A DNA stretch of 39,526 nucleotides from Bryobacteraceae bacterium. Lineage in GTDB: Bacteria > Acidobacteriota > Terriglobia > Bryobacterales > Bryobacteraceae. This document shows, in pieces, positions 10,900-29,750 of this stretch. How positions within the stretch are numbered: the first letter of the stretch is position 1; every line of letters begins with the position of its first letter. The stretch lies in contig JASIAM010000011.1 in the NCBI GenBank assembly GCA_030041985.1, forward strand, positions 1 to 39,526, given 5' to 3'. Made by a program: the position numbers and the translations under genes. A model generated the notes under the pieces. That model had not been told where the DNA came from and made no database searches. It saw only the letters and a program-made list of their open reading frames with translations.

Positions 10900-12429
10900 T
10901 CAGTTTAGATCCCCCGCCGGCACCGGAGACTCCTGGAAGACCCGCCGGTACAGATCTTCGCCATGACTCGTCGGGAGTGGCTCACCTTCGATGAGCCGGA
11001 ATGTGCGGCTGCCGTCGGCCAGTCTCTCTGCCCGAAGGAACAGGGCGTCCCCTCTTTTCTCGGCATAGAAACCATCGGCCAGATCGAACAGGTGAGTCAC
11101 ATAAAAGACCTTGATATTGCTCTCGAGCAGCGCATGAACAATTTGCCTCGCAATTTCCGAACCCTCTCTTTCGTTTGTCGAGGCGAATGACTCGTTCATC
11201 AACACAAGACTGTTGGGAACTAACTTCTCTACGATAGAGCTCATTCTCTTCAGCTCCTCATCCAGCTTGCCGCTCTTCATCTGAGAGTCCTCTTCACGCT
11301 TAAAGTGTGTAAACATACCGGAACAGATGTTCGCGCGGCAGGACTCCGCCGCCACGAACATGCCGCACTGCATCATCAGTTGCGCCTGGCCAAGACTGCG
11401 CAGTAGAGTGGACTTGCCGCCCCGGTTCGCCCCCGTAATCACGATGAGGGACTTATTTTCTCCGCTCACATCGTTCCCTACCGCTCTGCCGTCGATACAC
11501 AAACTTAAGCAGACATCATAAATCCCCCGCGCGGAGAAGGCCTGTGTTCCGCCGGACACTGGTTCTGGAAAACAGAATGGCTCCCCCTTCCCACTTAACC
11601 GCTCGCAAAGGTTGAGGCACGCGATATAAAACCCCATTTCCAGCCGCAGCATTTGAAAAAAGCTCAGAATATGGTCTGTGGACTGTCCCAGGGCCGCGGC
11701 AACATGGCCGATTCCGCGGCTTTGAATTTCGGACAGTGCACGAAACCCGCCTTCGTCGCGATCGGCGATCTCGTACACAAACGATTCGTCGCCGTCCCAC
11801 CCCAGCCAGCTCTGAACCCTTTCCTTCCAACTCAATTTCAGATCCGGAAGCTTGCGCAGAACGTAGTTCGTTCCCTTTAAGTCCTTGTCGAGATCGGCGG
11901 TCATCAGAATGCCGGCGGGAAATTCCAGGCGGCGCAGGTGCTCCTCGATGATGCTGAGGTATTCGTCATCCAATTCTTTGGTGAGCATTCCGAAGAATCG
12001 TTTAAACCCTTCCGAACGGAATTCCGAGCCATGATTATCGGCAACTTGCCTAAGTTGCTTCAGTAGGGCTGAGAAGATCTCAAGAACATCGACCGCCCGG
12101 TGCAAAGCGCTCGAAGGAATATCTGACGTCCAACCCCATACTCTTCTTTCCCGGTCGATTGCCTCGACTGCAATCCGGTAGATTTGCTTGACTAGATCCG
12201 GATGTGCGATGCAGTCTTGGAGCACGTGTTGACGGTACAGAATAGCGCCCGGCTCTAAAAGACTGGTCAGCACAGCCGTCTTTACAACTTCGAGCAGGAA
12301 TTCGTCGCCGCCTGCCATGGATTCGAACAGCGTGTCGAGCCCGAAATCCTTGGTCAAGTCAATGGAGTTGGGCGGGACGTACGTGTGCAACTGGAAATCC
12401 TGGTCCCGGTACATCAGTAAAGCTTTCAT
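10900..12429 (-). CDS. MutS-like ATPase, second gene of a pair
   Basis: This 509-residue protein has a C-terminal MutS/ABC-type ATPase domain but no mismatch-recognition (domain I) or connector domain. Walker A is GANRGGKST at 333-341. THFKREED near 374 and GKLDEELKRM near 387 form the family's Q-loop region. The Walker B is LVLMNESFAST near 408-418, with Asn in place of the usual Asp before the catalytic Glu. VFYVTHLFDLAD near 441 is the switch histidine region. The helical N-terminal half parallels the upstream gene (LDTLFESMAGGDEFLL against LDQVISSIVAGKDEYDL). Its ATG overlaps the upstream stop by 4 bases. Mutual ATPase pairing is likely. The function is unknown and canonical mismatch repair is unlikely. 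Confidence 0.85.
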   Translation of the reverse strand: MKALLMYRDQDFQLHTYVPPNSIDLTKDFGLDTLFESMAGGDEFLLEVVKTAVLTSLLEPGAILYRQHVLQDCIAHPDLVKQIYRIAVEAIDRERRVWGWTSDIPSSALHRAVDVLEIFSALLKQLRQVADNHGSEFRSEGFKRFFGMLTKELDDEYLSIIEEHLRRLEFPAGILMTADLDKDLKGTNYVLRKLPDLKLSWKERVQSWLGWDGDESFVYEIADRDEGGFRALSEIQSRGIGHVAAALGQSTDHILSFFQMLRLEMGFYIACLNLCERLSGKGEPFCFPEPVSGGTQAFSARGIYDVCLSLCIDGRAVGNDVSGENKSLIVITGANRGGKSTLLRSLGQAQLMMQCGMFVAAESCRANICSGMFTHFKREEDSQMKSGKLDEELKRMSSIVEKLVPNSLVLMNESFASTNEREGSEIARQIVHALLESNIKVFYVTHLFDLADGFYAEKRGDALFLRAERLADGSRTFRLIEGEPLPTSHGEDLYRRVFQESPVPAGDLN

Positions 12430-14036
12430 GGCTTCTTCGCGCTCCGCATAACACGTCCTTTGACCATCTCGTAGGTAAGCCGGTGCTTCTCCGCGATGGC
12501 TGCCGCAAAGGCGAGCCCGTCCGGCGGCCGCCGCACCACCTTGAAAGTCCGGAGCGCCGGATCTTTCGGGTCCACAGTGCTCACCATGCTCACTGTTGTT
12601 TTGCTCAGGGCCGCCAGTTCGTCAAGAAAGGTCACCGTCACACAAAGTAGATCTAACTCGATCACTCGCTCCATGACCCGCTTACTCAAAAAGAGAGCGT
12701 CATTTAAGGTTGTCGAGAGAAAGCTCTCGTTCATGATCAGTATGCTATCCGCAGTCGCGTCCTCGAGAATACGGCGGATTCGAATTAATTCGTCTTCGAG
12801 TTTGCCGGTCAGGCTCCGGAGATCTTCCTCCCTCTCAAAATGCGTGAAAAGCCTGTCCCACAAGAACAAGCGCGCGTTGCCCCCCGCTACCGGACAACCG
12901 ATACTGCCCAGATAATGCATTTGTCCGAATGTGCGGGAGAAAGTAGTTTTTCCGCCCTGGTTCGGTCCCGATACGACCACGATGCGCTCCGGATCGGCCA
13001 ACTCGAAATCGTTGGTGACGACCGGGGAACGCTCCCGGATCAGCCGGCTCGCGAGAGCCAGGTCGAACACTCCATAGCCGGACACTTCTTTGGAATGGCT
13101 AACGGCCGGATAGCAGATCACTAAGCCCGCGCTGCGGAACTGCTTCATATATTCCGCGCAGGAAATATAGAACTGTACTTCCCGGTCGAATGCCGCAATT
13201 ACCGGATTCAGATAGGCGACGTAACGCTCCGTGTATTGTTCGAACGATGCAAACATCTCCGGAAATGCTTGAACCACCAGATCCAAGACTGCCGCTTCGA
13301 CATGGTTCATCTCCCCTGCAGCGCTAAAGCGGAACCGGTACTGCCTCGGCGCGCCCTGTTTGAACCGCTCGAAAGTTTCGAGCACGTCAGCGCCATAGTC
13401 CGGTTCCGACTGACAGCGGCTCACCTTGATGCGCTTGCCTACAATGTGTATGCGATATCGGATATTGGAGAGACCCGACCGGACTCGCTGAGTATCGGTG
13501 GCTAGCGAAATAAAGTCTTCCGACTCCGTGTAAGCAAGTAGATACTCGCGCAGACCAAGAAAGCCGTCTGAGTGAAGATTGGCGTTTCGCAGATCTTCGG
13601 TTAGATGGCTCACCGCCCGGCAGTAAGTCTCAATCGCGCTCAGCAATGCGCTTTGCTTCTGATGTTTGTAATAAAGCTTTTCGCTTCGTGCCAGGTCGGC
13701 ACGCATCGTTCGCATCTCCTGTGCGAACGATTGGATAGACTTCCACAGGCTTTCGTTCTCCAGATCCCGAAAAACATCATGCCGGTAGTTGATTTCATTG
13801 GCATCCCTGAGCGGAGTGTAGAAGAAGGGCCGTAAATCGTACTCGTCCTTGCCGGCAACAATGGACGAAATAACTTGGTCGAGACTAAGATCCGACAAAA
13901 ACTCGGGGGCTTCCACACGATTCTGAGCGCTCCCGGGTTTCTCGAAAAGAATGCTCTGAAAACGGAGGGCAACAACTTTTTGGGATGGCAGATCGGCCGT
14001 TGGCGCTCCTGCCGAATTCCCCGATTGGGTTAGCAT
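12426..14036 (-). CDS. MutS-like ATPase, first gene of a pair
   Basis: This 536-residue protein is a paralogue of the gene that follows it. The helical N-terminal part (about 45-300) contains FLSDLSLDQVISSI and YRHDVFRDLENES. The ATPase domain has Walker A GPNQGGKTT at 357-365, THFEREEDLRSLTGKLEDEL near 398-417 and Walker B ILIMNESFLSTTLNDAL near 432-448, again with N instead of D before E. TFLDELAAL near 469 takes the place of the switch histidine motif, and the His seen in the partner is absent. No MutS domain I or clamp is recognisable. The ATG start at 14034-14036 faces the dynamin-like operon across a 412-base gap that carries two structured repeats. Confidence 0.85.
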   Translation of the reverse strand: MLTQSGNSAGAPTADLPSQKVVALRFQSILFEKPGSAQNRVEAPEFLSDLSLDQVISSIVAGKDEYDLRPFFYTPLRDANEINYRHDVFRDLENESLWKSIQSFAQEMRTMRADLARSEKLYYKHQKQSALLSAIETYCRAVSHLTEDLRNANLHSDGFLGLREYLLAYTESEDFISLATDTQRVRSGLSNIRYRIHIVGKRIKVSRCQSEPDYGADVLETFERFKQGAPRQYRFRFSAAGEMNHVEAAVLDLVVQAFPEMFASFEQYTERYVAYLNPVIAAFDREVQFYISCAEYMKQFRSAGLVICYPAVSHSKEVSGYGVFDLALASRLIRERSPVVTNDFELADPERIVVVSGPNQGGKTTFSRTFGQMHYLGSIGCPVAGGNARLFLWDRLFTHFEREEDLRSLTGKLEDELIRIRRILEDATADSILIMNESFLSTTLNDALFLSKRVMERVIELDLLCVTVTFLDELAALSKTTVSMVSTVDPKDPALRTFKVVRRPPDGLAFAAAIAEKHRLTYEMVKGRVMRSAKKP

Positions 14037-14047
14037 GGTGAAGCTGG

Positions 14048-14130
14048 CTCCGGTTCGAATTCACTTCCGAGGAGTCATCTTCCCACTAAACAGATGGGCG
14101 GTTAGCGGCGGACTCCAACACCCACGCTAC
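14048..14130 (+). repeat. Structured GGAGTCAT element, copy A
   Basis: Core GGAGTCAT is at 14071-14078, then a possible CATCT...AGATG stem (14076-14096), then a distal hairpin AGCG...CGCT (14104-14127) whose loop holds ACTCC (14112-14116). The loop is complementary to GGAGT, so a pseudoknot is possible. A CTCC...GGAG pairing may close the upstream side. Copy B, 240 bases away in reverse orientation, shares GGAGTCATCTTCCC and the segment around CCCAACACC/CTCCAACACC. It sits in the leader region between the MutS-like and dynamin-like operons. Confidence 0.6.
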
Positions 14131-14319
14131 CTCATCAGTATCTCAGCAAAAGAAAACCCCTGTCAATCCGCGACCGAATGCGGCGAATGCGAGTCTAAGT
14201 ATCAGGTCTGCGGCGCGCTCGGAAAATGCCGGTTCGCCGGCCTCGGCTGGGCCGTACCTGCCAATAACCTGGGCAGAATCAAATCGTTGACGGAACGGGT
14301 CCGCTGACTTCATAATAGT

Positions 14320-14395
14320 GACGGCAGGTGTTGGGGTCCGCCTTTGGAAAACATCCCATTCGGGGAAGATGACTCCTAGGGGATCTGGGCGGCGC
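14320..14395 (-). repeat. Structured GGAGTCAT element, copy B
   Basis: Read on the minus strand, the core GGAGTCAT (14376-14369) is followed by CTTCCC and a CATC...GATG stem. The distal hairpin GGC...GCC (14342-14323) has a loop containing ACCCC in place of ACTCC. One mismatch would remain in the loop pairing to GGAGT. It is close to copy A in sequence and inverted to it, with its 5' side facing the dynamin-like gene. The proximal hairpin seen in other copies is not clear here. Confidence 0.55.
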
Positions 14396-14402
14396 CGGCG
14401 CC
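14391..14402. promoter_or_regulatory. Perfect 12-base palindrome upstream of the dynamin-like operon
   Basis: GGCGCCGGCGCC reads the same on both strands and lies 46 bases before the ATG of the first GTPase gene. It could be an operator for a dimeric regulator or just a GC-rich palindrome. No regulator gene is adjacent to support the first reading. Confidence 0.3.
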
Positions 14403-14448
14403 TTTCACCGTCATCGATTCCCCAGTTTCTCGTGCGCGAAGAGGAGTC

Positions 14449-16515
14449 ATGCGAGAGTCGAACCCCTCGGGCGAATTGAATTCGTCGCAGAAGCTGCACC
14501 TTCTGACGAGCTGTCAGTACGCAGATAAGCTGCTCTCGGAGATCGAAGCGGCGCTTTCCTCCGCCACTTCGAAATCTGCATTCCCCAAATTCAACGTGGA
14601 TATCACTCCGGCGCAGACCAAGGTCGTCCAGGACTATCTTTCGCAATTCCGCGCGCAGATGCTGCGCGTGCTGGCCAGTCAAGATATTGCGCCGCCCCTT
14701 CCCAACGTAGGCTCCATTCATTCCATCCGCGTCACCCTTACCTTCATTCGAATTGCCTTTGAGGAATGCACGCCCGATCGAATGCGGGGCTACGGCGAGT
14801 TACCTGCCTCCAGGGTGCGGGAGTTGAACGGGATTGTCGGTGAGATGACGGCAACCGTGGAAAAATTGCAGCAATATCTCGCCCAAGGACTCGGACAGGA
14901 TCTTGAGGCCCGTCTGGACAGACTGGCCTCTACCAATGACGAAATTAACTTGCTAAGAGACCTGGAACGCATCATCAACAACCGCGGTCTCGTCGAGTTC
15001 CGGCCGGTAGTTTCCATGATCCTGGACCGGCTGGAGCACCAGAGTTTCGAGATCGCGCTGTTCGGCCGGGTTAGCTCCGGCAAATCATCCCTGCTCAACT
15101 ACATCGCCGGAGAGAATGTGCTCCCGGTGGGGGTGAATCCGATCACTGCGGTGCCAACCAGGATGGCTTTTGGGAATGAGCCAAGCTTGTCCATCTGGTT
15201 TGCGCACAAATCCGCTGAGCGAACCGAAACGAGCCGGCTTGCGGAATTCGTTACGGAGCAACTCAATCCCGGAAATTCGAAGCATGTTACGCGCATCACT
15301 GTAGAACTGCCTTCCGAGCGCCTGCGCGATGGGGTTGTACTCGTGGATACGCCGGGTCTCGGCTCTCTGGCAACCGCCGGCGCCGTGGAAACGCTCGCCT
15401 ACCTTCCTCGCTGTGATTTGGGTGTTGTGCTGGTGGATGCGGGCGCCACCCTAACACAAGACGATCTGGGAACAATTCGTGCCCTTTATGAAGCAGGCAT
15501 TCCGGCGAGTGTCCTGCTCAGCAAAGCCGATGTCTTGACTCCAGAGGATCGGGCCCATGCGTCCGAATACATCGCCGGTCATATCCGAAGAGAGTTGGAA
15601 GTCAACCTTTCCGTCCACCCCGTCAGTGTGAAGCCGGAATTTTCCTTTCTTCTGGATCAATGGCTTCAGCAGGAAATTGCTCCCTTGCTCGATTGCCATC
15701 AGCAACTCGCGCAGGAGTCGATCCGGCGGAAGATCGGGGCGCTCCGCGAATCGGTAGCGACCGCCCTGACCATCCGTCTGGAACGTTCTCACGGAAAAGC
15801 ACAGCCCGATACCGGGACGCTGCAAAATGTCGACGGTATTTTAAGGAATGCCTCAGGACGTTTCGAAGTAGCGCGGGAGGAATGCTTGAAGGTGACCGAC
15901 GAAGTCCGCCAATTTGGCGATACTGCGTTGCAGCAGGCCGCATCGCAAATCCTTCAACGATGGGAGGAAAACCGCGATCGCGCCGATTGGGCGGGACCTT
16001 TGGCGGATGCCATCACCAGCCAGGCAGCCGAGAAAGCCGCTTTGGCCTACGCGACACTCAACGCACTTGCCAAGGATCTTTCACGAGCGCTCCGTTCGGC
16101 CGCCGAAGCTCTCGCTTCACCGGACCCGCCTAGCGATGACGAACTGAGCAGCCTGGTTAAGGAAATGCCGCGTATCGATGCCGGCACGCTGGGTTCTGGT
16201 TCTCGTCCCAAATTGCTGCTGGTCCGCTGGCGGTGGATGGCGAAACGGCAGATCGAGAGCAGCCTGCGGGACCAGTTCGGACCCGAAGTCGCGGAGGCAT
16301 TTTCCTCGTATGGAAGAATGCTCGAAGCCTGGACGCGCAGGATACTTGCGGACCTCCAGCGGCATTTCGAAGCGGGGGCCGACGGCTATCGCGCTCATTT
16401 TCGCAGTCTTGCCGCGTCCGCATCGGCGCCAGTTGACAAAGAAGCTCTGCAGCGCGATTTGGACCGGCTGATGAGTGTGGAATCGGGCGCAAACAGCGGG
16501 CGAGGCTCTGATTGA
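14449..16515 (+). CDS. Dynamin-like GTPase, first of a tandem pair
   Basis: This 688-residue large GTPase starts with a helical N-terminal region of about 195 residues. The GTPase core has G1 GRVSSGKSS at 206-214, G2 in PITAVPT at 231-237, G3 DTPG at 300-303 and G4 SKAD at 358-361 (S in place of N). A long helical C-terminal stalk follows (about 440-680). This layout fits bacterial dynamin-like proteins, which bind and remodel membranes after GTP-driven dimerisation. Many of them act as heteromeric pairs, as the overlapping partner gene suggests. The start is ATG 14449 with GAGGAG only two bases away, an unusually short gap; TTG 14476 is a possible alternative. The membrane-inserting paddle cannot be located with confidence. 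Confidence 0.85.
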   Translation: MRESNPSGELNSSQKLHLLTSCQYADKLLSEIEAALSSATSKSAFPKFNVDITPAQTKVVQDYLSQFRAQMLRVLASQDIAPPLPNVGSIHSIRVTLTFIRIAFEECTPDRMRGYGELPASRVRELNGIVGEMTATVEKLQQYLAQGLGQDLEARLDRLASTNDEINLLRDLERIINNRGLVEFRPVVSMILDRLEHQSFEIALFGRVSSGKSSLLNYIAGENVLPVGVNPITAVPTRMAFGNEPSLSIWFAHKSAERTETSRLAEFVTEQLNPGNSKHVTRITVELPSERLRDGVVLVDTPGLGSLATAGAVETLAYLPRCDLGVVLVDAGATLTQDDLGTIRALYEAGIPASVLLSKADVLTPEDRAHASEYIAGHIRRELEVNLSVHPVSVKPEFSFLLDQWLQQEIAPLLDCHQQLAQESIRRKIGALRESVATALTIRLERSHGKAQPDTGTLQNVDGILRNASGRFEVAREECLKVTDEVRQFGDTALQQAASQILQRWEENRDRADWAGPLADAITSQAAEKAALAYATLNALAKDLSRALRSAAEALASPDPPSDDELSSLVKEMPRIDAGTLGSGSRPKLLLVRWRWMAKRQIESSLRDQFGPEVAEAFSSYGRMLEAWTRRILADLQRHFEAGADGYRAHFRSLAASASAPVDKEALQRDLDRLMSVESGANSGRGSD

Positions 16516-16517
16516 AC

Positions 16518-18956
16518 ATGCCGGCCGATGAGGAACTCCAGCCCGGACTGCTTCGCGGCTTTGATCACTTCAAATTGGAACTCGCCGCTGTGATCCGGTC
16601 TCTGCGTCAGATCGCCGGGAAGCAAAAAGATGCGCAAAAATCCGATGAGTGCCGCAAACTTCTTGCGCGCCTGGCCGAAGATCGCTTCAATCTGGTTGTC
16701 GCCGGACAGTTCAGCCGTGGCAAGACCTCGCTCATGAATGCGATTTTGGGCGTGGACCGGCTCCCTACCGGTATCCTGCCGTTAACCTCCGTGATCACCG
16801 CCGTTTCCTATGGGGACCGCGAACGCGTCTTGGTCCACTGGGACCGGTGGTCATACACGTCGGAGATTTCCCTTCGTGAGCTTCCTGAATACGTTACGCA
16901 GGAGGGTAATCCCGGAAACCGAAAACGCGTGCGCTCTGTCGAAGTGCAGCTTCCTCTCGAGCTTCTGCGCCTGGGATTCTATTTCGTGGATACACCTGGC
17001 ATCGGTTCGGCGATCGCCGCGAATACCGCCACCACGACATCATTCCTGCCGGAGGCTGATGCGGTCATCTTCGTAACCAGTTTTGAGTCGCCACTCACCG
17101 AGGCCGAACTCAATTTCTTTGAGCAAGTCCGCGCGTATGTCCGAAAGATCTTTGTAGTTATCAATAAGCGAGACCTGGCGCCTACCGAGTCTCAGGATTC
17201 CGTCCTGAAGTTCGTGGAGCGGCAACTCAAGGAGATCTGCGGGGACCCGTGTCCGCGCATCTACTCTGTTTCGGCTCGGGACGGGCTGCGGGCGAAACAG
17301 AATTCCGATACCGATGCGCTTCAACACAGCGGGATTCCACAGTTGGAGACGGATTTAATTCAATTCCTCGATACGGACAAAATGCATGATTTTCTCGAGC
17401 GCATTTCGGGCCGTGCATCAGCTATTTTGTCCCGGCTAATTGAGGAATACGAGTTGTCGCAATCGGTGAGCGCCGATGCGGAGAAGAGGAGAAGCCTCGA
17501 AGAGGCACTAAGCCAACGGGTGAACCAGATCCGGGGCGGTTGGGAACGCAGCAAGGTATCCCTTCGCGGCAAGCTGGCCGGCGCCTTGGTTGCCCGCTTC
17601 GAACCGGCCCTCGAACGCCCTTTGGCGGAAATCCGCGCTACAGCCGAGCAGAACATCATTCAATACGTGGATGGGCAGGCGTCTTTCACCGATTCATTCA
17701 ACGCGGGATTGGCGGCGGCGGTTGACAGCAGCGCTCAGCGCATCCTGACTGACTGGCTGAGCGAAACGCAGCGCGAGCTCCGGCAGGTGGTGGATGCTGT
17801 CGCCCACGAAGAACTGCGCGACGTTTTGCAGGGACTTCTCGAGATAGACCAGTCGCAATCGACTGAGGGCCGTATCAGTGAAATCCTTAGAGATCTGTCC
17901 CTATCCTTCCGCAGAACCTCACCCGATCTCTGGAATTTTAACCTTCCCTGGTGGATGGAGCCGTTGCTTTCCATCCGCGTGATTAGAGGGAGGATTAGGC
18001 GGTGGTGTCTCAAGCGTCTCGATAAGCTGGTTCCTAAGTTCTACTGTGAAGTTCTCCGGTTGTGGAACGTGGCGGCAGAGGACTGGACCGAGCAGTTGGA
18101 CCACGCACTAAGTGAAGTGATTACGAGCACCGCTGAGAGTCAGCTTCACACGCTCACCAGAACGGTGGATCGTGAGGAGCGGGACACTCTCACTCAGATC
18201 CGTTGCCGCCTTAATCGAGTCAACTCCTCGTTGAGCCACATCGATTTCCCCCACGGCCCACCGGCCTCGGGCGGCATTGTGGAAACAGATCATGTGCCGC
18301 GATCGGATGTAACAGCGCGCTGCCTGATTTGCGTGCAAGTCGAAGCGGGGCTGTTTGAGTTCATGCGCCACCGCCAATATGAACTGAGCACGAGCGCGCC
18401 GGATCAGGCCGCTCATGCCGAACAGAGCGGCTTCTGCGGTTTGCACACCTGGCAATATGAAGCGATCGCCTCTCCCCAGGGCGTCTGCACCGCCTATCCG
18501 GCGGTCTTGTCTACCATGCAGCGCCGCCTTCGCTCGTTGGCGAGGCGAGCTTCGTCCACGGTTGGCCTAGCGGAGGCAGTCGCCGAGACTCTGCCGCGGG
18601 CCATTAAGTGCCGCGCCTGCCAATTGATTGCCGGTATCGAGCGAACCGCCGCCCATGAAATCGTTTCCCGGTTGGCCTCTTCCGGAGAAAGCGCTGACTT
18701 ACCACCGTTGTGTATGCGCCATTTGCATTCTGTCTTGCTCGCGAAGCCCAACCTCGAAACCGCGCGGCTTCTAGTCGAGGAACAATCTCGTGTGTTGGAA
18801 CGAGTGAGCGAGCACATGCAGCGGTACGCAATCAAACACGAAGCGGTTCGCAGAGAACTCGCTACGGAACTTGAACACCGAGCCTACGAAATCGGGTTGT
18901 CAAGACTGGCCGGACTTCGCAGTACTGTAGCGCCTTGGAAAACCGATCCCGATTGA
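16518..18956 (+). CDS. Dynamin-like GTPase with C-terminal double CxxC...CxxH module, second of a tandem pair
   Basis: This protein of about 812 residues starts at ATG 16518, two bases after the upstream stop; TTG 16512 would overlap that stop instead. GTPase motifs (numbered from the TTG) are G1 GQFSRGKTS at 65-73, G2 in LPLTSVITAV near 89-98, G3 DTPG at 160-163 and G4 NKRD at 218-221. A helical stalk spans about 290-570, including a tryptophan-rich hydrophobic patch, WNFNLPWWMEPLLSI near 474-488, which could touch membrane. The C-terminal part has two repeated cysteine/histidine pairs: C604-x2-C607 with C642-x2-H645, and C700-x2-C703 with C734-x2-H737. They resemble the zinc-binding-type units of DUF6062-like proteins. 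The gene is coupled to the first GTPase. Confidence 0.85.
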   Translation: MPADEELQPGLLRGFDHFKLELAAVIRSLRQIAGKQKDAQKSDECRKLLARLAEDRFNLVVAGQFSRGKTSLMNAILGVDRLPTGILPLTSVITAVSYGDRERVLVHWDRWSYTSEISLRELPEYVTQEGNPGNRKRVRSVEVQLPLELLRLGFYFVDTPGIGSAIAANTATTTSFLPEADAVIFVTSFESPLTEAELNFFEQVRAYVRKIFVVINKRDLAPTESQDSVLKFVERQLKEICGDPCPRIYSVSARDGLRAKQNSDTDALQHSGIPQLETDLIQFLDTDKMHDFLERISGRASAILSRLIEEYELSQSVSADAEKRRSLEEALSQRVNQIRGGWERSKVSLRGKLAGALVARFEPALERPLAEIRATAEQNIIQYVDGQASFTDSFNAGLAAAVDSSAQRILTDWLSETQRELRQVVDAVAHEELRDVLQGLLEIDQSQSTEGRISEILRDLSLSFRRTSPDLWNFNLPWWMEPLLSIRVIRGRIRRWCLKRLDKLVPKFYCEVLRLWNVAAEDWTEQLDHALSEVITSTAESQLHTLTRTVDREERDTLTQIRCRLNRVNSSLSHIDFPHGPPASGGIVETDHVPRSDVTARCLICVQVEAGLFEFMRHRQYELSTSAPDQAAHAEQSGFCGLHTWQYEAIASPQGVCTAYPAVLSTMQRRLRSLARRASSTVGLAEAVAETLPRAIKCRACQLIAGIERTAAHEIVSRLASSGESADLPPLCMRHLHSVLLAKPNLETARLLVEEQSRVLERVSEHMQRYAIKHEAVRRELATELEHRAYEIGLSRLAGLRSTVAPWKTDPD

Positions 18957-19370: not shown

Positions 19371-19853
19371 TCAGCGAATCAGCGTGAAAGTATTGGACTC
19401 CGCTGCCTCTGGCTGGCGCGGTTCCGCGAAAGAGAGGTCTACCACTCGAACTCGCTGCCCTTCGGCGAACTCTTGTAGCAGGATTTCAGCCCCGTTACAA
19501 AACCGGACCGCATCCCGGTACTGGTTTTCTTCCGCGGTAAGTTGGGTGAACATGACCTCTTCTACTGTTCCTACGGCAGCCTTGTGTTGCAGGCTCCGTT
19601 GCACACCGATTAGCAACAAGCGGGCGCCAGGTGGAACACAGACGGCTGGCACAGAATCCCCAACCGGCCCCCAAAGAAGCTTCCATAGGCCAGCCCAAAA
19701 GCTAGTTTGCGCCCGAACGTTTGCATGAATCCGCTCAATCCCTTTGTTCCATGGCGCAAGCCCTACTGCACCCGTCGAGAACCGGAAAGTAACCAACTCT
19801 TCCCCCTCGACCGCCAAGCGGTTCCGAATACCCATCAGCGAATAGTCACACAT
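19371..19853 (-). CDS. Conserved hypothetical protein (MCDYSL-type)
   Basis: This is a 160-residue protein from ATG 19851-19853; an upstream TTG or other start would add 12 residues without family features. The opening MCDYSLMGIRNRLAVEGEEL is one I recall from an uncharacterised protein family found in several bacterial phyla. After it comes a beta-rich middle, a short hydrophobic stretch (VPPGARLLLIGVQ) and an acidic C terminus. No catalytic motif is evident. The small gene at 19065-19364 follows closely. Upstream lies a 336-base gap with element copy C. Confidence 0.6.
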   Translation of the reverse strand: MCDYSLMGIRNRLAVEGEELVTFRFSTGAVGLAPWNKGIERIHANVRAQTSFWAGLWKLLWGPVGDSVPAVCVPPGARLLLIGVQRSLQHKAAVGTVEEVMFTQLTAEENQYRDAVRFCNGAEILLQEFAEGQRVRVVDLSFAEPRQPEAAESNTFTLIR

Positions 19854-19926
19854 ATCCTTTGCCTCCCTTGAGCCAATAGGCTCTAGCAATGCTAAGTGGG
19901 AACTTCAGGAATACACGATCTAACTT

Positions 19927-19990
19927 CCTGTAACGGTTCCCGCTACAGGAGTCATTGGCCGCGTAGCGACGTGATGCGAACTCCACCGCT
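19927..19990 (+). repeat. Structured GGAGTCAT element, copy C
   Basis: A proximal hairpin CCTGTA...TACAGG (19927-19932 with 19944-19949) carries a loop with TTCCC. GGAGTCAT follows directly (19948-19955), then TGGCCGC and a small CGT...ACG stem. The distal hairpin GCG...CGC (19976-19989) has AACTCCA in its loop. The sequence GGAGTCATTGGCCGC is shared exactly with copy D. Loop ACTCC can pair with GGAGT. Confidence 0.65.
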
Positions 19991-20094
19991 TTGGACTTAG
20001 GTTACACTAATCCCCTTACCTTGTCAATACATTGGGCCGAACATGCAGTGGGTCCGAACAGTTCGAACACAGCGAGCCGAAAGCGGCAAGGTCT

Positions 20095-21104: not shown

Positions 21105-23119
<2,015 letters not shown>

Positions 23120-23389: not shown

Positions 23390-23452
23390 GCAGTTCTTCC
23401 CAACTGCAGGAGTCATTGGCCGCTGTGGCGCTGTTAAGCGGACTCCACCGCT
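23390..23452 (+). repeat. Structured GGAGTCAT element, copy D
   Basis: This is the cleanest copy. The proximal stem GCAGTT (23390-23395) pairs with AACTGC (23402-23407) around a CTTCCC loop. GGAGTCAT is at 23409-23416. The distal stem AGCGG (23437-23441) pairs with CCGCT (23448-23452) around the loop ACTCCA. The loop ACTCC is exactly complementary to GGAGT. Copy E follows in inverted orientation 70 bases away. Confidence 0.7.
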
Positions 23453-23521
23453 GGCAATCCGTCCACATCATAACACCACTTGCTATTGAGCGAATCGGCT
23501 TGGACGCACAGAATAGCAGTA

Positions 23522-23588
23522 GGCGTTGGGGTTCGCCATGGATCGTCTTCCCGCGCAGATGACTCCCACGAGGGATCGGTCGTAGGAG
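23522..23588 (-). repeat. Structured GGAGTCAT element, copy E
   Basis: On minus, a proximal stem CTCC-ACGA with TCGT-GGAG (23588-23563) encloses a loop with ATCCC. GGAGTCAT is at 23566-23559. The distal stem GGCG...CGCC (23537-23522) has loop AACCCCAA. Loop-to-core pairing would have one mismatch, as in copy B. It is inverted relative to copy D. Confidence 0.65.
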
Positions 23589-23942: not shown

Positions 23943-24068
23943 GCGTTGCCGGAAAGCGCCGCCGTATCAGTCCCACCGAGCTATGTCTCAGGATTAGACC
24001 AACTCATTTTCCGCGAACCGGCGAGAGCTCTTGCGACTTTCTCTGATCTGTGCTTGAATTGTGTTTTA

Positions 24069-24156
24069 AAGGCAATGGAGTTTGCCTTGCGGGCGTCTGC
24101 CCGTCAGAATTGCTGTTTTGGTTTGGCGGCTGATGACTCCTCCGAAAAGGGAGAGG
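24069..24156 (-). repeat. Structured GGAGTCAT element, copy F
   Basis: On minus, a proximal CCTCTCCC...GGAGGAG hairpin (24156-24137) precedes GGAGTCAT (24140-24133). After a longer insert that has its own GGGC-AGAC-GCCC hairpin, the distal stem AAGGCA...TGCCTT (24088-24069) carries the loop AACTCCAT. Loop ACTCC again matches GGAGT. It lies about 160 bases upstream of the Ehr operon, antisense to it, and no inverted partner was found. Confidence 0.6.
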
Positions 24157-24314: not shown

Positions 24315-25268
24315 ATGACACATACAATTGCCTATAACGTCCTGCAGATCCTCTTCGTGATGGTGTTCGCGCCACTTTACGCCGGGGTGCTTTCCCGATT
24401 TAAAGAGATAGTGCAAAGCCGGCGCGGACCGAGTATCTTCCAATCCTACCGGGACATCTGGAAACTGTTTCACAAGGATGAAGTCATCTCGGAGGAGACG
24501 ACCTGGATCTTCCGGTTCACTCCCTATCTTGTGTTCGTCACGCCAATTTTTGTGGCGACCCTAATTCCCGTGCTCACTGATTATCCGCTGGCATTCGCAT
24601 TCATGGCCGACATGGTGGGAGCGGGTTTCTATCTTGCTTTTGCGGGATTCTTCGCGGCCCTCGCAGCCGTCGACACCGGTAATCCGTACGGTCCCATGGG
24701 AGCAAGCCGCACCCGCATGGTGGGGTTTCTAGCGGAGCCGGTTTTTATGATCGTGTTTTTTACGGTTTCGTTTGTAGCCCAGTCCACGATCCCGTACATC
24801 GTGCAGCAGAAGTGGGTTGCCTCAGCGGCGGCGTTTTTTTCTCCGGCTCATATTCTGTTGCTGATCGCATTTTTAATGCTGATCCTTGCCGAGGGAGGGC
24901 GGATTCCAGTGGACAATCCGACGGGACATTTTGAGCTGGCAATGATCGATGAATCTAAGGGGTTGGAGTATTCCGGACGAGGCGCGGCGTTGATGAAATG
25001 GGGCGGCCAGATGAAATTTTTGATCCTCGCCTGCATTTTCCTGAACGTCCTTTTGGCGCCGTGGGGCTTGGCGCATGGCACCAATGCTGGCGCGGTGTTT
25101 GCAGCGATTCCGCAGATTCTTCTAAAAGTGTTTCTGCTGGCGCTGCTTTTGGTGGCCATTGAGACTTCGCTCGCCAAACTGCGCCTGTTCCGGATCAGTG
25201 AGTTCTTAGGCGCGGCTTTCATCACCTCAGTCGCCGCGATGGTGACGAGCATATTTCCTGGAGTTTAG
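24315..25268 (+). CDS. Ehr complex membrane subunit, HyfC/NuoH-like
   Basis: This is a 317-residue integral membrane protein with about eight hydrophobic segments, homologous to HyfC/HycD and complex I NuoH. That subunit links the soluble Fe-S arm to the ion-pumping arm. Conserved loops are SRRGPSIFQSYRDIWKLFHK near residue 36 and LAEGGRIPVDNPTGHFELAM near 191, the counterpart of the quinone-cavity loop with its acidic residues. The start is ATG 24315, with only a weak GGGG upstream. It is the first gene of a seven-gene run in which neighbours overlap or nearly touch. The role in ion coupling is known for the family; the redox partner here is unknown. Confidence 0.9.
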   Translation: MTHTIAYNVLQILFVMVFAPLYAGVLSRFKEIVQSRRGPSIFQSYRDIWKLFHKDEVISEETTWIFRFTPYLVFVTPIFVATLIPVLTDYPLAFAFMADMVGAGFYLAFAGFFAALAAVDTGNPYGPMGASRTRMVGFLAEPVFMIVFFTVSFVAQSTIPYIVQQKWVASAAAFFSPAHILLLIAFLMLILAEGGRIPVDNPTGHFELAMIDESKGLEYSGRGAALMKWGGQMKFLILACIFLNVLLAPWGLAHGTNAGAVFAAIPQILLKVFLLALLLVAIETSLAKLRLFRISEFLGAAFITSVAAMVTSIFPGV

Positions 25269-25271
25269 AAA

Positions 25272-25955
25272 ATGACAGGTTCCATACCGGAAGCGTTGAA
25301 CACACTTTGTGCAGGGCTGGTTCTCATTGCGGCGTTTGCTATGGTTGCGACGCGCCAGGTACAGGGCGTCATCAGATTCTTTATCATCCAATCTCTGCTC
25401 CTATCAGCATCCTGCTTTCTGCTTGGGTATAGCCGGTCCTCGATTCATTTGTTTATCCTTGGCGTGCTAACGATCCTGTCAAAAGTGATCGCGATTCCAT
25501 GGGTTCTCCGGAGGCTTTTACCGGTTGACTACTACGAACGGCGTGAGATTTCCCAGGTAGTGAACATACCTGCGTCCTTGCTGGTCGCATTGTTGCTTGC
25601 CATAGCCGCGGAATTTCTAACTGGCTCCTTGGTTACACACGTCAGCGACCCGATGATTGTCGTGAATGTGCCGATCGGTATGGCGGGGCTCCTCATTGGA
25701 GCTTGGGCGTTAATTGCGCGGCGAGAGGCGATCCCGCAGCTCATTGGAATTTTAGCTATGGAAAATGGCGCTTTCTTTGCCGGTATCGTGATTGCGAATG
25801 AGTTGCCGTTCATCGCTGAACTCGGGGTGTTTGGCGGTGTGATTCTCATTGTCATTGTCGTAGGGCTGCTGACGCGCAACATCGGCGAAACGGTTGGCAC
25901 GACGGAGCCGGCCGCAATGAGGGAGCTACGGGAGGCACCAGTCTCATGGCGCTGA
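25272..25955 (+). CDS. Ehr complex membrane subunit, HyfE-like
   Basis: This 227-residue protein has about seven membrane segments and follows the HyfC-like gene by 3 bases. It matches hydrogenase-4 component E in size and topology; the N-terminal part corresponds to the NuoK-like portion of that subunit. LSKVIAIPWVLRRLLP near residue 63 and IGILAMENGAFFAGI near 158 (with the intramembrane Glu) are the recognisable blocks. HyfE/NuoK subunits contribute a proton path to the antiporter arm. A GGAG about 10 bases before ATG 25272 supports the start. The end overlaps the next gene by 10 bases. Confidence 0.85.
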   Translation: MTGSIPEALNTLCAGLVLIAAFAMVATRQVQGVIRFFIIQSLLLSASCFLLGYSRSSIHLFILGVLTILSKVIAIPWVLRRLLPVDYYERREISQVVNIPASLLVALLLAIAAEFLTGSLVTHVSDPMIVVNVPIGMAGLLIGAWALIARREAIPQLIGILAMENGAFFAGIVIANELPFIAELGVFGGVILIVIVVGLLTRNIGETVGTTEPAAMRELREAPVSWR

Positions 25956-27391
25956 TTCTGGTAGTGGTGATTCCGCTTCTGGCAGCTCTGCTGTGCTGGA
26001 TTCCGCCGTTCCGGAGGTTCGCATGGGGCATTACGGTGGTATCGGGATGGGTCGTTTTTGCACTTACGGTGTTCGTCTGGCATGAAGTTCTCCTGAACGA
26101 AAGAGTAGTTAGCCTGCCCCGCTGGATCGAAATAGATGGGTTGGGGGTGCTGATATTAGGAATCGTCAGCTTGGTGAATGCGCTGGCCGCAGTATTTGCG
26201 GGTGGATATATGCGGCGGACCGAACACGAACCTGAGCGCCTCTGGTGGTATTACTGTAACTCCAATCTTTTTGCGTTTTCTCTGCTAGTGGTGCCGGCAG
26301 TGGCGGACCCAAATCTTAGCTGGGTCGGCGTGGAGCTAGTCACACTGTTTGCCATTCTTCTGGTCGGGTTCGAACGGTCGGCCAACGCATTGGAAGCCGC
26401 CTGGAAATATGCGGTGCTCACGATGATGGGCGCGCCGGTTTCGCTGTTTGGCTTTTTCACCTTGTTTTGGGCCTACCACGCGGTAAGCGGTGGAGCGCCC
26501 GAGACATGGCAATCGATTCAGGCCGCGGCTCCCAACATGGATCCGAATCTGCTGAAAATTTCCTTTCTCCTGATTTTTGTTGGATTCGGCGCCAAGTCAG
26601 GCCTCGCTCCGGTACACACTTGGCTGCCCGATGCGCACAGCCAAGCCCCTTCACCGGTATGCGCCGTTCTTTCCGGAGTCAAGACCAGCGTTCCTCTCTA
26701 CGTGATCTTGCGCCTAATAGGAGTCGTCTTAGGCTCGCCCATGGCTCGAGTGGGACACTGGATGGTCGTGCTCGGTCTCATCTCGGTTGGGATTGCCGCT
26801 TTCCTCCTGCTTCAAGTTAGAGATTACAAGCGCATGTTTGCTTACTCGACGGTCGAGCATATGGGAATCATTTTGACGGCCACCGGGCTTGCCACTGGAA
26901 CGGCGGATTTCGGCGCCGTACTGCAGATGCTCAATCATGCGATTACGAAGTCACTTTGCTTCTATGTCGCTGGGGTGGTTCTCCTGGTTCTAGGTACGCG
27001 TGAGATTGCGTCCATACGTGGCTTGTTCCGTATTTCTCCGTTTGCAGCTTCGGCACTATTATTCTGTTCTCTGGCGATCGCCGGCGCGCCGCCGTTCCCG
27101 ATTTTCTTGAGTGAGTTTTCGATTCTCTCGGCGGGTCTTCGCGTCGGGCAGTACGCTGCCGTGGCGATTCTGGCCACGCTGATTGTGATCGCGTTCGTGG
27201 CCATTCTGCTGCATGTCAATCGAATGGCCTTCGGGGAACCGGACGCGCCCCATTTGGCGAAACCACTTCCCCTGAGCTGCCGCGTTGCCGTCATTGCCGC
27301 CGCGGTGCCGGTCCTCTTTTTGGGCGTCTACATTCCCGCGCCAATAAATGACATCTTACAGCTAGCTGCGCGTGAACTTGGAGGACATTGA
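25946..27391 (+). CDS. Ehr complex antiporter-like subunit, HyfF/NuoN-like
   Basis: This 481-residue protein with about 14 membrane segments belongs to the Mrp/NuoL-M-N family. Key features are the broken-helix lysine block KSGLAPVHTWLPDAHSQAPS near residue 216, the region VRDYKRMFAYSTVEHMGIIL near 291 and a preceding Glu in the VELVTLFAILLVGFE segment near 130. All are typical of HyfF, a proton channel of formate hydrogenlyase-like complexes. It overlaps the HyfE-like gene by 10 bases and ends 2 bases before the ATG of the large-subunit gene. It should pump protons or Na ions, and the ion is not decided by sequence. Confidence 0.9.
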   Translation: MALILVVVIPLLAALLCWIPPFRRFAWGITVVSGWVVFALTVFVWHEVLLNERVVSLPRWIEIDGLGVLILGIVSLVNALAAVFAGGYMRRTEHEPERLWWYYCNSNLFAFSLLVVPAVADPNLSWVGVELVTLFAILLVGFERSANALEAAWKYAVLTMMGAPVSLFGFFTLFWAYHAVSGGAPETWQSIQAAAPNMDPNLLKISFLLIFVGFGAKSGLAPVHTWLPDAHSQAPSPVCAVLSGVKTSVPLYVILRLIGVVLGSPMARVGHWMVVLGLISVGIAAFLLLQVRDYKRMFAYSTVEHMGIILTATGLATGTADFGAVLQMLNHAITKSLCFYVAGVVLLVLGTREIASIRGLFRISPFAASALLFCSLAIAGAPPFPIFLSEFSILSAGLRVGQYAAVAILATLIVIAFVAILLHVNRMAFGEPDAPHLAKPLPLSCRVAVIAAAVPVLFLGVYIPAPINDILQLAARELGGH

Positions 27392-27393
27392 TC

Positions 27394-29004
27394 ATGACGA
27401 TCGCACCTCCTTCCCACTCGCCTTTGGATCTGGAGGGTTTGATCACGCTGCTAAACGAGCGATTCGGCACCGGGATTTCCCTCTTGAAGGAAGCGCCCGG
27501 GCTGGTGGTTCGGGTTCTGGATCAGGCGGTTCTCCGTGCTGTCAGCCGTTTTCTGTTTTGGGAAGCCGACGGATTTTTTGGCGGGCTGATTGTCGAGGAG
27601 CGGTTCGGCGAATGGACCCTACAATATCTTTTCCTGCTGCGCCACATCGGTTGGGTAGATGTCGTCGTACGCTCCCCATTCGCCCAGAAGGCGATTCCCA
27701 GTATCGTCGCCGAGGTTCACGCCGCGGACTGGTACGAGCGGGAAGCCGAGGACCTTTTCGGCATCGATTTCGAAGGCCACCCGCGGCTGGGCGATTTTAT
27801 TCTTCACGACGAAACGTGGCAAGAGCACATCGCGCCGATGCGTAAGGAGTTCGATGCCGCCGTCCGCAACTTCGAGCGGGAGCCTAATCAAAAATGGCGG
27901 CCCACCCTGGTCGTGGAGGACCCTGGCTCGTTCGCGATGCCGGTAGGGCCGGTGTATGAAGGCGGGCTCGGCGAGCCGATCCACTTTTTGCTCGAAACCG
28001 TAGGCGAGGATGTGATCCGCGAAGTTCCACGCCTCTTTTACAAATACCGCGCTGTCGAAAAGATCGCCGAAGGAAAGGCGGTTTCCGACGTTTTGCTGCT
28101 GGCCGAGAGGTTTTCCGCGACGTCCGCTTTTGCGCATTCGTTGGCGTTCTGCCAAGCGATCGAAAATGCGGTCCAGGTGGAGATTCCCGCGCGGGCGAGC
28201 AGGCTTCGGGTGGTGCTTGCGGAACTGGAGCGGCTGCGGCATCATGCGGGAGCAATCGAGGGGATCTGCCAGTCGACGGCGTTGAGCGTTTCCGAAGCTC
28301 ATGCGGCGATCATCGAGGAACAACTGCTGCGGGCGTCGGCGGCGTTCACGGGACACCGCTACCTATTCGGACTCAACACACTGGGCGGTTTGCAGCGGGA
28401 TGTTGAGGAATCCGGCTGCCGCGACCTTCTCCGCGCCATTGATGACGCCGATTCGCAGCTTCGCATCCTGGAAGATCGCCTGCACTATACCAGCAGCTTC
28501 CTCGATCGTCTCGAGGACGTGGGCGCGATCAGCCTGGAAAATGCCCGCGATCTGGACTTGGTGGGACCCGTTGGACGAGCATCGGGCGTGGCACGCGATT
28601 TGCGGAAAGCGTGCCCGTATGCGAGCTATTCGGAATATTCGTTCGATGTCCCAAGCGAGAAAGAAGGCGATGGATATGCCCGCTTGCGCGTGCTGTTCGC
28701 GGAAGCGCGCGAATCGGCGCGGCTGATTCAACAGGCGATTGCATCGCTCGAACCCGGCGAAATCTCGATCCCGCTGGATGCGCCGGTTTCCACAGTCGCA
28801 TTTGGATGGGCGGAAGCGCCGATCGGCGCGGCTCTCCATGGACTCCGTCTGGATTCTCAGGGCCGCATTGAGCGATACCGCATCCTGACGCCATCGTTTC
28901 GAAACTGGCTGGGGTTCCATCTTGCCGCTGAGGATTTCGCCTTCCAGGATTTTCCGATTATTCTGGCGACTTTCGGATTATCTGCCACGGAGTGTGACCG
29001 ATGA
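27394..29004 (+). CDS. Ehr complex large subunit (fused NuoC/NuoD-like, HyfG-related) lacking Ni-Fe ligands
   Basis: This is a 536-residue protein from ATG 27394 with GGAGG nine bases upstream. The N-terminal NuoC-like domain (to about 165) has WYEREAEDLFGIDFEGHP. The hydrogenase-large-subunit/NuoD-like domain opens with GPVYEGGLGEPIHF near 187. At the first Ni-Fe motif, where HyfG has R-x-C-G-x-C, this protein has RFSATS (about 239-244), with Ser in place of both Cys. The C terminus reads FGLSATECDR where hydrogenases have DPCxxC. All four nickel ligands are therefore missing, and the protein cannot be an active [NiFe] hydrogenase. It matches the energy-converting hydrogenase-related (Ehr) group. 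The overlap with the next gene is 4 bases (ATGA). Confidence 0.9.
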   Translation: MTIAPPSHSPLDLEGLITLLNERFGTGISLLKEAPGLVVRVLDQAVLRAVSRFLFWEADGFFGGLIVEERFGEWTLQYLFLLRHIGWVDVVVRSPFAQKAIPSIVAEVHAADWYEREAEDLFGIDFEGHPRLGDFILHDETWQEHIAPMRKEFDAAVRNFEREPNQKWRPTLVVEDPGSFAMPVGPVYEGGLGEPIHFLLETVGEDVIREVPRLFYKYRAVEKIAEGKAVSDVLLLAERFSATSAFAHSLAFCQAIENAVQVEIPARASRLRVVLAELERLRHHAGAIEGICQSTALSVSEAHAAIIEEQLLRASAAFTGHRYLFGLNTLGGLQRDVEESGCRDLLRAIDDADSQLRILEDRLHYTSSFLDRLEDVGAISLENARDLDLVGPVGRASGVARDLRKACPYASYSEYSFDVPSEKEGDGYARLRVLFAEARESARLIQQAIASLEPGEISIPLDAPVSTVAFGWAEAPIGAALHGLRLDSQGRIERYRILTPSFRNWLGFHLAAEDFAFQDFPIILATFGLSATECDR

Positions 29005-29750
29005 GCTTCTGGTTCTGGAACGGTTTGAAACGGGGAATCCAATCCACACGCTATCCGCGCCTGCCGGAGACGACGCCGGGCGTTACACCCGGGCGTCCCA
29101 TGGCGACTACGTTCGCATCCGCGGAAGAGGCCGCCCACGCTGCTTCCGGATGTCCGGTGGGTGCGATCACGGCCGCTGGCCGCGAAGCGCTGATCGACCT
29201 CAGAACATGCATCCATTGCCAGCGTTGCCGCTTTGGAGGTTCGCCGCCAGTGGAATGGGTTAACGATTTCGAATGGACTCAACTGGCTAGGACACAAACG
29301 AGCTTCGAGCCGCTGAACAGATCCTTCCAGCGGTCGCTTCACATCATGGTGGTGGATGCAGGCGACTGTGGAGCCTGCCTGCGCGAGATCAAGCAGCTTA
29401 ACAACCCCCTGTACAACATTCACCGTCTTGGGTTGTTTTTCACGCCGACGCCGCGAACGGCTGACGTGCTGTTGGTGGTCGGACCCGTTACCGAAAATAT
29501 GCGCGGGCCGCTGGAAAAAACCTATCACGCGATGCCTCAGCCGAAGAAGGTTGTTGCGGTGGGAACCTGCGCGATTACGGGTGGTGTTTTCGGGCGAACA
29601 TTCGCCTCCGCAGGTGGTGCTGGTATGGTTCTTCCAGTCGATCTGGAGGTTCCGGGCGATCCCCCGCCTCCGCTCGCGATTCTTCACGGCTTGCTCGTTC
29701 TCACCGGACGCAAGAGTTTGCAACTGAGTCAGACTGCTGCCGCGTCATGA
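29001..29750 (+). CDS. Ehr complex Fe-S subunit: reduced ferredoxin domain fused to HyfI/NuoB-like domain
   Basis: This is a 249-residue protein. Residues 1-90 resemble the HyfH/HycF/NuoI subunit (GLKRGIQSTRYP opening) but keep only one cluster: GCP at 50-52 and C70-x2-C73-x2-C76. These would bind one [4Fe-4S]; the ligands of the other usual cluster are absent. Residues 110-249 are the small-subunit domain with C123-x2-C126 and C190 in GTCAITGG. In VPGDPPPP, D220 stands where HyfI/HycG proteins have Cys. The proximal cluster would thus have three Cys and one Asp, or be altered. It couples to the large subunit upstream and overlaps the next gene by 4 bases. Confidence 0.88.
   Translation: MSFWFWNGLKRGIQSTRYPRLPETTPGVTPGRPMATTFASAEEAAHAASGCPVGAITAAGREALIDLRTCIHCQRCRFGGSPPVEWVNDFEWTQLARTQTSFEPLNRSFQRSLHIMVVDAGDCGACLREIKQLNNPLYNIHRLGLFFTPTPRTADVLLVVGPVTENMRGPLEKTYHAMPQPKKVVAVGTCAITGGVFGRTFASAGGAGMVLPVDLEVPGDPPPPLAILHGLLVLTGRKSLQLSQTAAAS

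Follow-up and report, generated by a model that had tools for sequence, protein, structure and literature searches.

What brings two MutS-like ATPases and two dynamin-like GTPases together in one bacterial locus? The question is raised by a stretch of 39,526 nucleotides (hereafter the window; contig JASIAM010000011.1 of GCA_030041985.1) from a Bryobacteraceae bacterium whose assembly comprises 6.0 Mb in 355 contigs and is 98% complete. Here the genes MB and MA, encoding MutS-core ATPases, face the genes D1 and D2, encoding dynamin-like GTPases, across a single control region (14037-14448). An earlier note on this DNA had read the layout as two overlapping pairs, the ATPases without mismatch-recognition domains, and had proposed a candidate four-gene system with a possible role in phage defence, nucleoid-membrane linkage or stress membrane repair. 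The layout was confirmed: MA and MB overlap by 4 bases, as do D1 and D2; both ATPases match MutS domain V (PF00488; MA 6.7e-20, MB 5.3e-14, above the Pfam cut-offs) and both GTPases match Dynamin_N (D1 1e-22, 81.4 bits; D2 4.1e-25, 89.2 bits; cut-off 27 bits). The four-gene system gave way to a different picture. It is well supported that the MutS pair and the dynamin pair each form one module of a fluoride-stress island, which covers about 23 kb and also contains an enolase gene, a phosphoesterase gene and a hydrogenase-4-like operon. That they belong to such an island we hold with considerable confidence; the roles proposed below are inferred.

The control region contains two divergent fluoride-riboswitch-like elements, and the window contains six, in front of five recognised units and one unclear one. 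The element before MB and MA matches the Rfam fluoride riboswitch (RF01734) at 14070-14122 with 22.5 bits (E 0.042), short of the 34 bits that Rfam sets for gathering. Elsewhere, elements at the same place pass the Rfam cut-off, both before MB (for example L055, L068, L071, L090, L095 and L098) and before D1 (L153 and L156). Run on 24 related loci, Rfam returned 38 fluoride-riboswitch matches above gathering, in 20 of the 24, and listed no other RNA family. We used 36 of these 38 matches and three window elements (14062, 23400 and 24062) to build our own model of the riboswitch, R1, from 39 sequences. Their alignment has two hairpins and a pseudoknot with covariation across relatives: 88.9% of cells are paired, 8 of 11 pairs show two-sided change, and none of 500 shuffles reached as high a pair support; the pseudoknot helix is weaker (76.9%). 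According to an excerpt of a published account (PMC11139923), riboswitches of this class upregulate the genes downstream, and enolase is inhibited by fluoride. A fluoride-inhibited enzyme does lie behind a riboswitch-like element in the window, enolase being the second gene after element 23400-23461. It is the only enolase found in this assembly (E<=1e-10), so the housekeeping enolase itself may be under the control of a fluoride riboswitch.

The same association recurs in other genomes. A scan of named bacterial and archaeal genomes gave 387 matching stretches, 326 of which encode a relative; the best 80 were kept. By record title they span many phyla, including metagenome-assembled genomes (MAGs) labelled archaea, and the named records with the closest pairs are mostly Acidobacteria. 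Some redundancy remains in the counts: L055 is the same as contig C300 of genome G220, L069 and L124 overlap on one contig, L058 and L059 come from one genome, and L081 and L082 are near relatives; in L105 and L089, MB is broken into two frames. At least one element was detected by R1 in 64 of the 80 loci. Counting open reading frames (ORFs) and not loci, at R1 scores of at least 24 bits, and dropping ORFs under 100 amino acids as well as those with less than 300 bases upstream and no match, we looked for an element in the 500 bases upstream: of 68 scorable MB ORFs 45 have one, compared with 64 of 716 unlabelled ORFs. The figure for MA was 0 of 80, because MA is second in the operon. By the same tally, HyfC-like ORFs scored 9 of 9, enolase 9 of 22, D1-like 3 of 6 and D2-like 8 of 25. 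Clustering of the neighbours in the 80 loci brought out enolase (23 loci) and dynamins (flanks of 20 loci; 9 of 28 among loci over 20 kb), which also means that the linkage of the MutS pair to dynamins extends beyond this genome, and neighbours named from sequence by eye include CrcB, DUF190, UspA-like, pyrophosphatase, Na/H-antiporter-like and MFS proteins. This neighbour cluster is a fluoride-resistance set. On one Actinomycetota contig (PMSW01000120.1; L069/L124) there are three MB-MA copies, all of them with a riboswitch where MB starts.

Closer to home, a search of 100 related genomes found full-length MA orthologues in 2, not counting the genome of the window. In G220 a contig starts inside a D2 relative that is placed tail to tail with MA. 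The D2 relative of G293 is shorter and comes after the MutS pair, separated from it by enolase, a small ORF and a phosphoesterase. Hydrogenase-4-like genes lie nearby in both (in G220 by comparison, in G293 by eye from the ORFs). Gene content of the island is kept and gene order changes.

Plasmids carry the MutS pair as well: it is present on 47 plasmid records, 21 of them predicted conjugative. Among six plasmid stretches that we inspected, one was without annotation, CrcB was annotated on four and eno on three, and all six gave riboswitch matches. On three of them (L165, L166 and L167), where crcB and eno are neighbours, MB or both genes bear the label DNA mismatch repair protein MutS, which is likely a misannotation.

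The dynamins can be followed independently of the MutS pair. The window's genome has at least 11 riboswitch elements (a lower bound, with 150 of 1,584 first-look candidates scored) on three contigs, which also carry its four strong dynamin genes. Strong dynamin genes occur in 9 of 41 related genomes, 18 genes including these four, and an element lies upstream of 15 of the 18, directly in 10 cases and via a same-strand gene run in five. Three have none; one of these adjoins DUF190-like genes. At its own cut-off, Rfam found seven elements in six of the nine stretches examined (out of 12 from relatives), upstream of seven of the 18 dynamin genes. In a sample of the phylum, with 17 candidates scored per genome so that the counts are lower bounds, dynamins were found in 26 of 199 genomes. 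We tested 28 of the 33 non-self dynamin genes, retaining as misses two near contig ends (L194 and L218), and 17 of the 28 have an element upstream on the same strand, 14 of these 137-207 bases before the GTPase domain. No locus has an element downstream on the same strand, and two have one on the other strand. Rfam, run on 20 of the 28 loci (all 17 positives and three negatives), confirmed 15 of the 17 at its own cut-off. The binomial probability of such an association, about 5e-45, is a guide only, as it rests on the lower bound of 11 elements and treats loci as independent. Dynamins directly behind elements are also present outside Acidobacteria-labelled records, in the MutS-anchored loci L071, L080, L086, L090, L098 and L118. 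In L155, L164, L042, L159 and L160, a dynamin and two adjacent DUF190-like genes stand behind a fluoride riboswitch, sometimes with a CrcB-like gene.

In the phylum sample MA was found, at E<=1e-30, only in the window's own genome among the 199, and not in the genomes with riboswitch-led dynamins. This runs counter to the proposed four-gene unit, as does the variable order and strand of the genes among related loci, where the divergent order of the window is not conserved. The same facts bear on the idea that MA, MB, D1 and D2 form a dedicated four-protein linker between nucleoid and membrane. The four genes are adjacent in the window, and D1- and D2-like genes share loci L049, L053, L054, L056 and L061 with the MutS pair; either module is found without the other, however, and we regard such a linker as very unlikely.

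Table 1. Genes and riboswitch-like elements of the island in the window
Feature	Position	Strand	Remarks
MA: MutS-core ATPase subunit A, 509 amino acids	10900-12429	-	Walker A GANRGGKST; Walker B Asn-Glu; VTH kept
MB: MutS-core ATPase subunit B, 536 amino acids	12426-14036	-	Walker A GPNQGGKTT; Walker B Asn-Glu
Riboswitch-like element before MB-MA	14062-14131	-	R1 43.6 bits (R1 seed); Rfam match at 14070-14122
Riboswitch-like element before D1-D2	14318-14385	+	R1 36.5 bits, not seed; unlisted by Rfam at E<=1
D1: dynamin-like GTPase, 688 amino acids	14449-16515	+	
D2: dynamin-like GTPase, 814 amino acids	16512-18956	+	C-terminal region with two CxxC...CxxH sets
172-amino-acid protein, no family match	19371-19889	-	MCDYSLMG near start
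Weak riboswitch-like element before 19371-19889	19939-19999	-	R1 25.1 bits only, not seed; unlisted by Rfam
Enolase	21105-22406	-	
YfcE-type metallophosphoesterase	22403-23119	-	
Riboswitch-like element before phosphoesterase-enolase	23400-23461	-	RF01734 26.8 bits, E 0.0018, below gathering; R1 43.5 bits, seed
Riboswitch-like element	23513-23575	+	R1 33.6 bits, not seed; unlisted by Rfam at E<=1
Fluoride riboswitch before hydrogenase-4-like operon	24062-24149	+	RF01734 39.8 bits, above gathering (34); R1 seed
NADHdh / HyfC-like membrane subunit	24315-25268	+	
HyfE-like membrane subunit	25272-25955	+	
HyfF-like antiporter subunit	25946-27391	+	
NuoCD/HyfG-like large subunit	27388-29004	+	Without Ni-Fe cysteine pairs
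NuoB/HyfI-like small subunit	29001-29750	+	N-terminal CxxCxxC motif
HyfB-like antiporter subunit 1	29747-31888	+	
HyfB-like antiporter subunit 2	31921-34068	+	

Two smaller features complete the island. Element 23513-23575 is followed by small ORFs only, with no convincing gene, before the next element at 24062, and is possibly a tandem or decayed copy. By eye, an ORF similar to the 172-amino-acid protein is present in the G293 island.

What, then, is the MutS pair? In 79 of the 80 loci MB immediately precedes MA, the remaining locus starting 94 bases before MA, and of the heteromers suggested by the earlier note the one formed by the MutS pair is likely. In a domain search, neither protein matched the mismatch-recognition domain I or the connector domain II; a MutS_III match in MB stays under its cut-off. 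The Walker B motif reads Asn-Glu in 54 of 55 MA and 43 of 43 MB sequences, and Asp-Glu in 50 of 50 MutS-family comparators (MutS, MutS2, KamC and relatives; 49 by pattern and one by eye, leaving out one further row that was not a MutS protein). His 446 is present in 54 of 55 MA sequences, and MB has Phe at the same place (VTF) in 43 of 43. The AlphaFold model of MA (mean predicted local distance difference test score, pLDDT, 81.8) shows the MutS core and its lever, an ATPase, and a clamp that is short and modelled with low confidence; its best structural match is MSH2 in MutSbeta (8rz9_A; Z 30.6, 385 residues aligned, 4.2 A), and it aligns with residues 260-772 of E. coli MutS (3zlj_B; Z 28.5, 384 aligned, 4.9 A). 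The structural search matches include 3k0s, which is E. coli MutS D693N with the same Walker-B change, and 1nne, a MutS-ADP-BeF3-DNA complex. The D693N change reportedly weakens Mg handling. To us these features suggest a heterodimer that is asymmetric and has an altered Mg site. Curated cut-offs place the pair outside KamC, MutS2 and MutS: the NCBIfam scores are 72.4 (MA) and 44.9 (MB) bits for MutS2, with a cut-off of 400, and 72.6 (MA) and 33.5 (MB) bits for KamC (NF052383), with a cut-off of 300.

One explanation sees in the pair an accessory of DNA repair, acting on damage that arises under fluoride stress. It comes close to how the crcB motif was interpreted at its first description: an excerpt of that 2010 report (Weinberg et al., PMC2864571) notes that the crcB motif precedes the DNA-repair gene mutS and suggests a DNA-damaging stress. 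MA does retain the MutS core, lever/clamp and ATPase regions, and its clamp is net positive, with a mean charge of +4.8 that ranks 10th among 455 windows, compared with -6.2 over the full protein; this weakly supports nucleic-acid binding by the pair as predicted from its sequence. Yet the mismatch-recognition and connector domains are absent, an ordinary MutS with Walker-B Asp is kept in the window's genome, and MutL was found in 25 and not found in five of 30 genomes with the pair, a weak count that is not decisive, most of these being MAGs. We consider the repair explanation possible, if doubtful.

A second explanation, made by analogy, would have the pair act as a protein reactivase that frees fluoride-poisoned enolase or pyrophosphatase, in the way that KamC-type MutS relatives would serve an aminomutase. 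The KamC family is named 'reactivase ATPase', and the score of MA against it is similar to its MutS2 score; enolase is present in some of the loci. However, both proteins fall far under the KamC cut-off, the two proteins that exceed it (L171 and L172) have Walker-B Asp, and 57 of 80 loci are without enolase in the available flanks. In the open-licence PMC literature that we searched, nothing relevant to a reactivase function of KamC was found, and the function rests on the NCBIfam name. This option seems to us unlikely, more so than DNA repair.

For the dynamin pair, the best sequence matches in the PDB are IniA (6j72), 5owv and 2j68, and neither D1 nor D2 has a 19-residue window with mean hydropathy above 1.3. 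The D2 model, built from 7 sequences (mean pLDDT 60.8, predicted template modelling score 0.43), is poor outside the GTPase; the CxxC...CxxH region lies in the C-terminus of D2, 18321-18956. Stand-alone proteins with motifs like this C-terminus were seen by eye in four loci (for example L061, 4651-5334). All 23 dynamins in our check set match Dynamin_N, and one of these 23 related dynamins also has a DUF6062 match. Similarity of D1 and D2 to the Leo dynamin models of PADLOC (best 57.4 bits) is what would favour a phage-defence system. In the same scan MA and MB matched only general ATPase models, weakly. In NCBIfam the LeoA cut-off (325 bits) was not reached (D2 12.5 bits, D1 unlisted). The neighbours that we recognised are of the fluoride type, no systematic defence-gene search having been made in the related loci. 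Phage defence found no support from PADLOC, and we judge it extremely improbable. Of the roles offered by the earlier note, stress membrane repair is nearest to the evidence, with fluoride as the stress.

What, then, of the hydrogenase-4-like operon? In Ni-Fe hydrogenases, two CxxC pairs in the large subunit form the Ni-Fe ligand motif. Both pairs are absent from the large subunit of the window, and CxxC is absent from 6 of 6 large subunits of related islands (L052, L063, L064, L069, L097 and L112; two are fragments). Because these pairs are missing, the complex, as read from its sequence, cannot be a standard Ni-Fe hydrogenase or formate hydrogenlyase; more likely it is an ion-moving complex. 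Formate hydrogenlyase is cited as linked to fluoride riboswitches in an excerpt of PMC11139923, a name that, going by the predicted proteins, does not fit these loci.

We propose the following model. When fluoride builds up inside the cell, the riboswitches would switch on their units, as the known behaviour of the class suggests. The island would then supply enolase, a phosphoesterase, a complex-I-like membrane complex, the dynamin pair and the MutS-core pair. The membrane complex would more likely move ions, and the dynamin pair would most likely act at the membrane, limiting leak or damage from hydrogen fluoride and acid stress. The MutS pair would most likely work as an asymmetric heterodimer in which MA has the usual His and MB lacks it, and the clamp of this heterodimer would grip nucleic acid or a ribonucleoprotein. 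With Asn in place of the Mg-coordinating Asp of Walker B, it may keep cycling where metal-fluoride complexes trap ordinary MutS. In its full form, the model makes the dynamins a widespread, membrane-guarding arm of fluoride resistance and the MutS heterodimer, with its retuned Mg site, a second and metal-fluoride-tolerant arm; we offer this form tentatively, and rate it as less probable than not.

Several observations weigh against the fluoride-stress model. Only one of the six window elements (24062-24149) passes the Rfam cut-off; two more give weaker Rfam matches and three are seen by R1 alone, a model seeded largely from MutS-anchored loci, with three of the six window elements among its seeds. 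No element was found within 500 bases upstream of 23 of 68 MB, 3 of 6 D1-like and 17 of 25 D2-like ORFs, some of which are inner operon genes and some fragments, or upstream of 11 of the 28 phylum dynamin loci. No dynamin was seen in the available flanks of 60 of the 80 MutS-pair loci, many of them on short contigs, which also speaks against a self-contained four-gene system. In the MA of the window the clamp charge is -2, and in MB it comes close to zero, at +0.16. No ORF of at least 60 amino acids in the window was labelled as the exporter CrcB, CLC-F exporters not having been searched for; a CrcB-like gene is present on contig C69, adjoining another riboswitch-led dynamin.

Descriptions of fluoride resistance have so far centred on export, the replacement of enzymes and the control of pH. 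Riboswitch-led dynamins point to the membrane as a further target of fluoride, and they make fluoride a chemically simple inducer with which the purpose of bacterial dynamins can be tested. On many plasmids the MutS pair carries a mismatch-repair annotation that is probably wrong, and the constancy of its Walker-B change permits a direct test of metal-fluoride poisoning of P-loop ATPases. For such islands the name 'formate hydrogenlyase' may likewise be wrong, at any rate in those without the Ni-Fe ligands. If the two-arm reading is true, fluoride resistance would extend to membrane and nucleic-acid machinery, beyond ion export and enzyme replacement. In the open-licence PMC literature searched, no link between dynamins and the fluoride riboswitch or fluoride resistance was found. 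Nor did we meet there the invariant MB-MA pairing, the Asn of Walker B or the loss of the Ni-Fe ligands, no search having been aimed at them.

How does the island compare with known systems? Like the fluoride-resistance operons governed by RF01734, it combines a riboswitch with the gene of a fluoride-inhibited enzyme, enolase. An excerpt on the FRM operon of Enterobacter cloacae gives its order as ppaC-uspA-eno-gpmA-crcB (PMC5533749), and the plasmid islands with the MutS pair similarly carry crcB, eno and universal stress genes, two of them also phosphoglycerate mutase; unlike that operon, the window has no CrcB that we could find. To these operons the island adds the MutS-core pair, the dynamin pair and a hydrogenase-4-like complex. 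The last shares with group 4 [NiFe] hydrogenase and formate hydrogenlyase subunits resembling HyfB, C, E, F, G and I, but differs in a large subunit without both cysteine pairs. That mutS and formate hydrogen lyase genes can follow the crcB motif was already reported in 2010, as an excerpt of PMC2864571 states; in the literature searched, this was the only paper found to bring crcB, MutS and the riboswitch together. With MutS, MutS2 and MSH proteins the MutS pair shares core, lever/clamp and ATPase, its structural matches being MSH2 in MutSbeta, E. coli MutS and MutS2; it differs in lacking domains I and II, in the Walker-B Asn of both subunits and in the loss of the usual His from MB. KamC is likewise a MutS-like ATPase of about 510 amino acids, as MA is, but stands apart by score and by its Walker-B Asp. 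D1 and D2 resemble the bacterial dynamins (IniA, BDLP, the Campylobacter DLP pair and LeoABC) in their Dynamin_N GTPase and tandem arrangement, and are set apart by the CxxC/CxxH region at the C-terminus of D2 and the fluoride riboswitches in front. What is ordinary here is the fluoride-resistance island; what is unusual is its dynamin module and its altered MutS pair.

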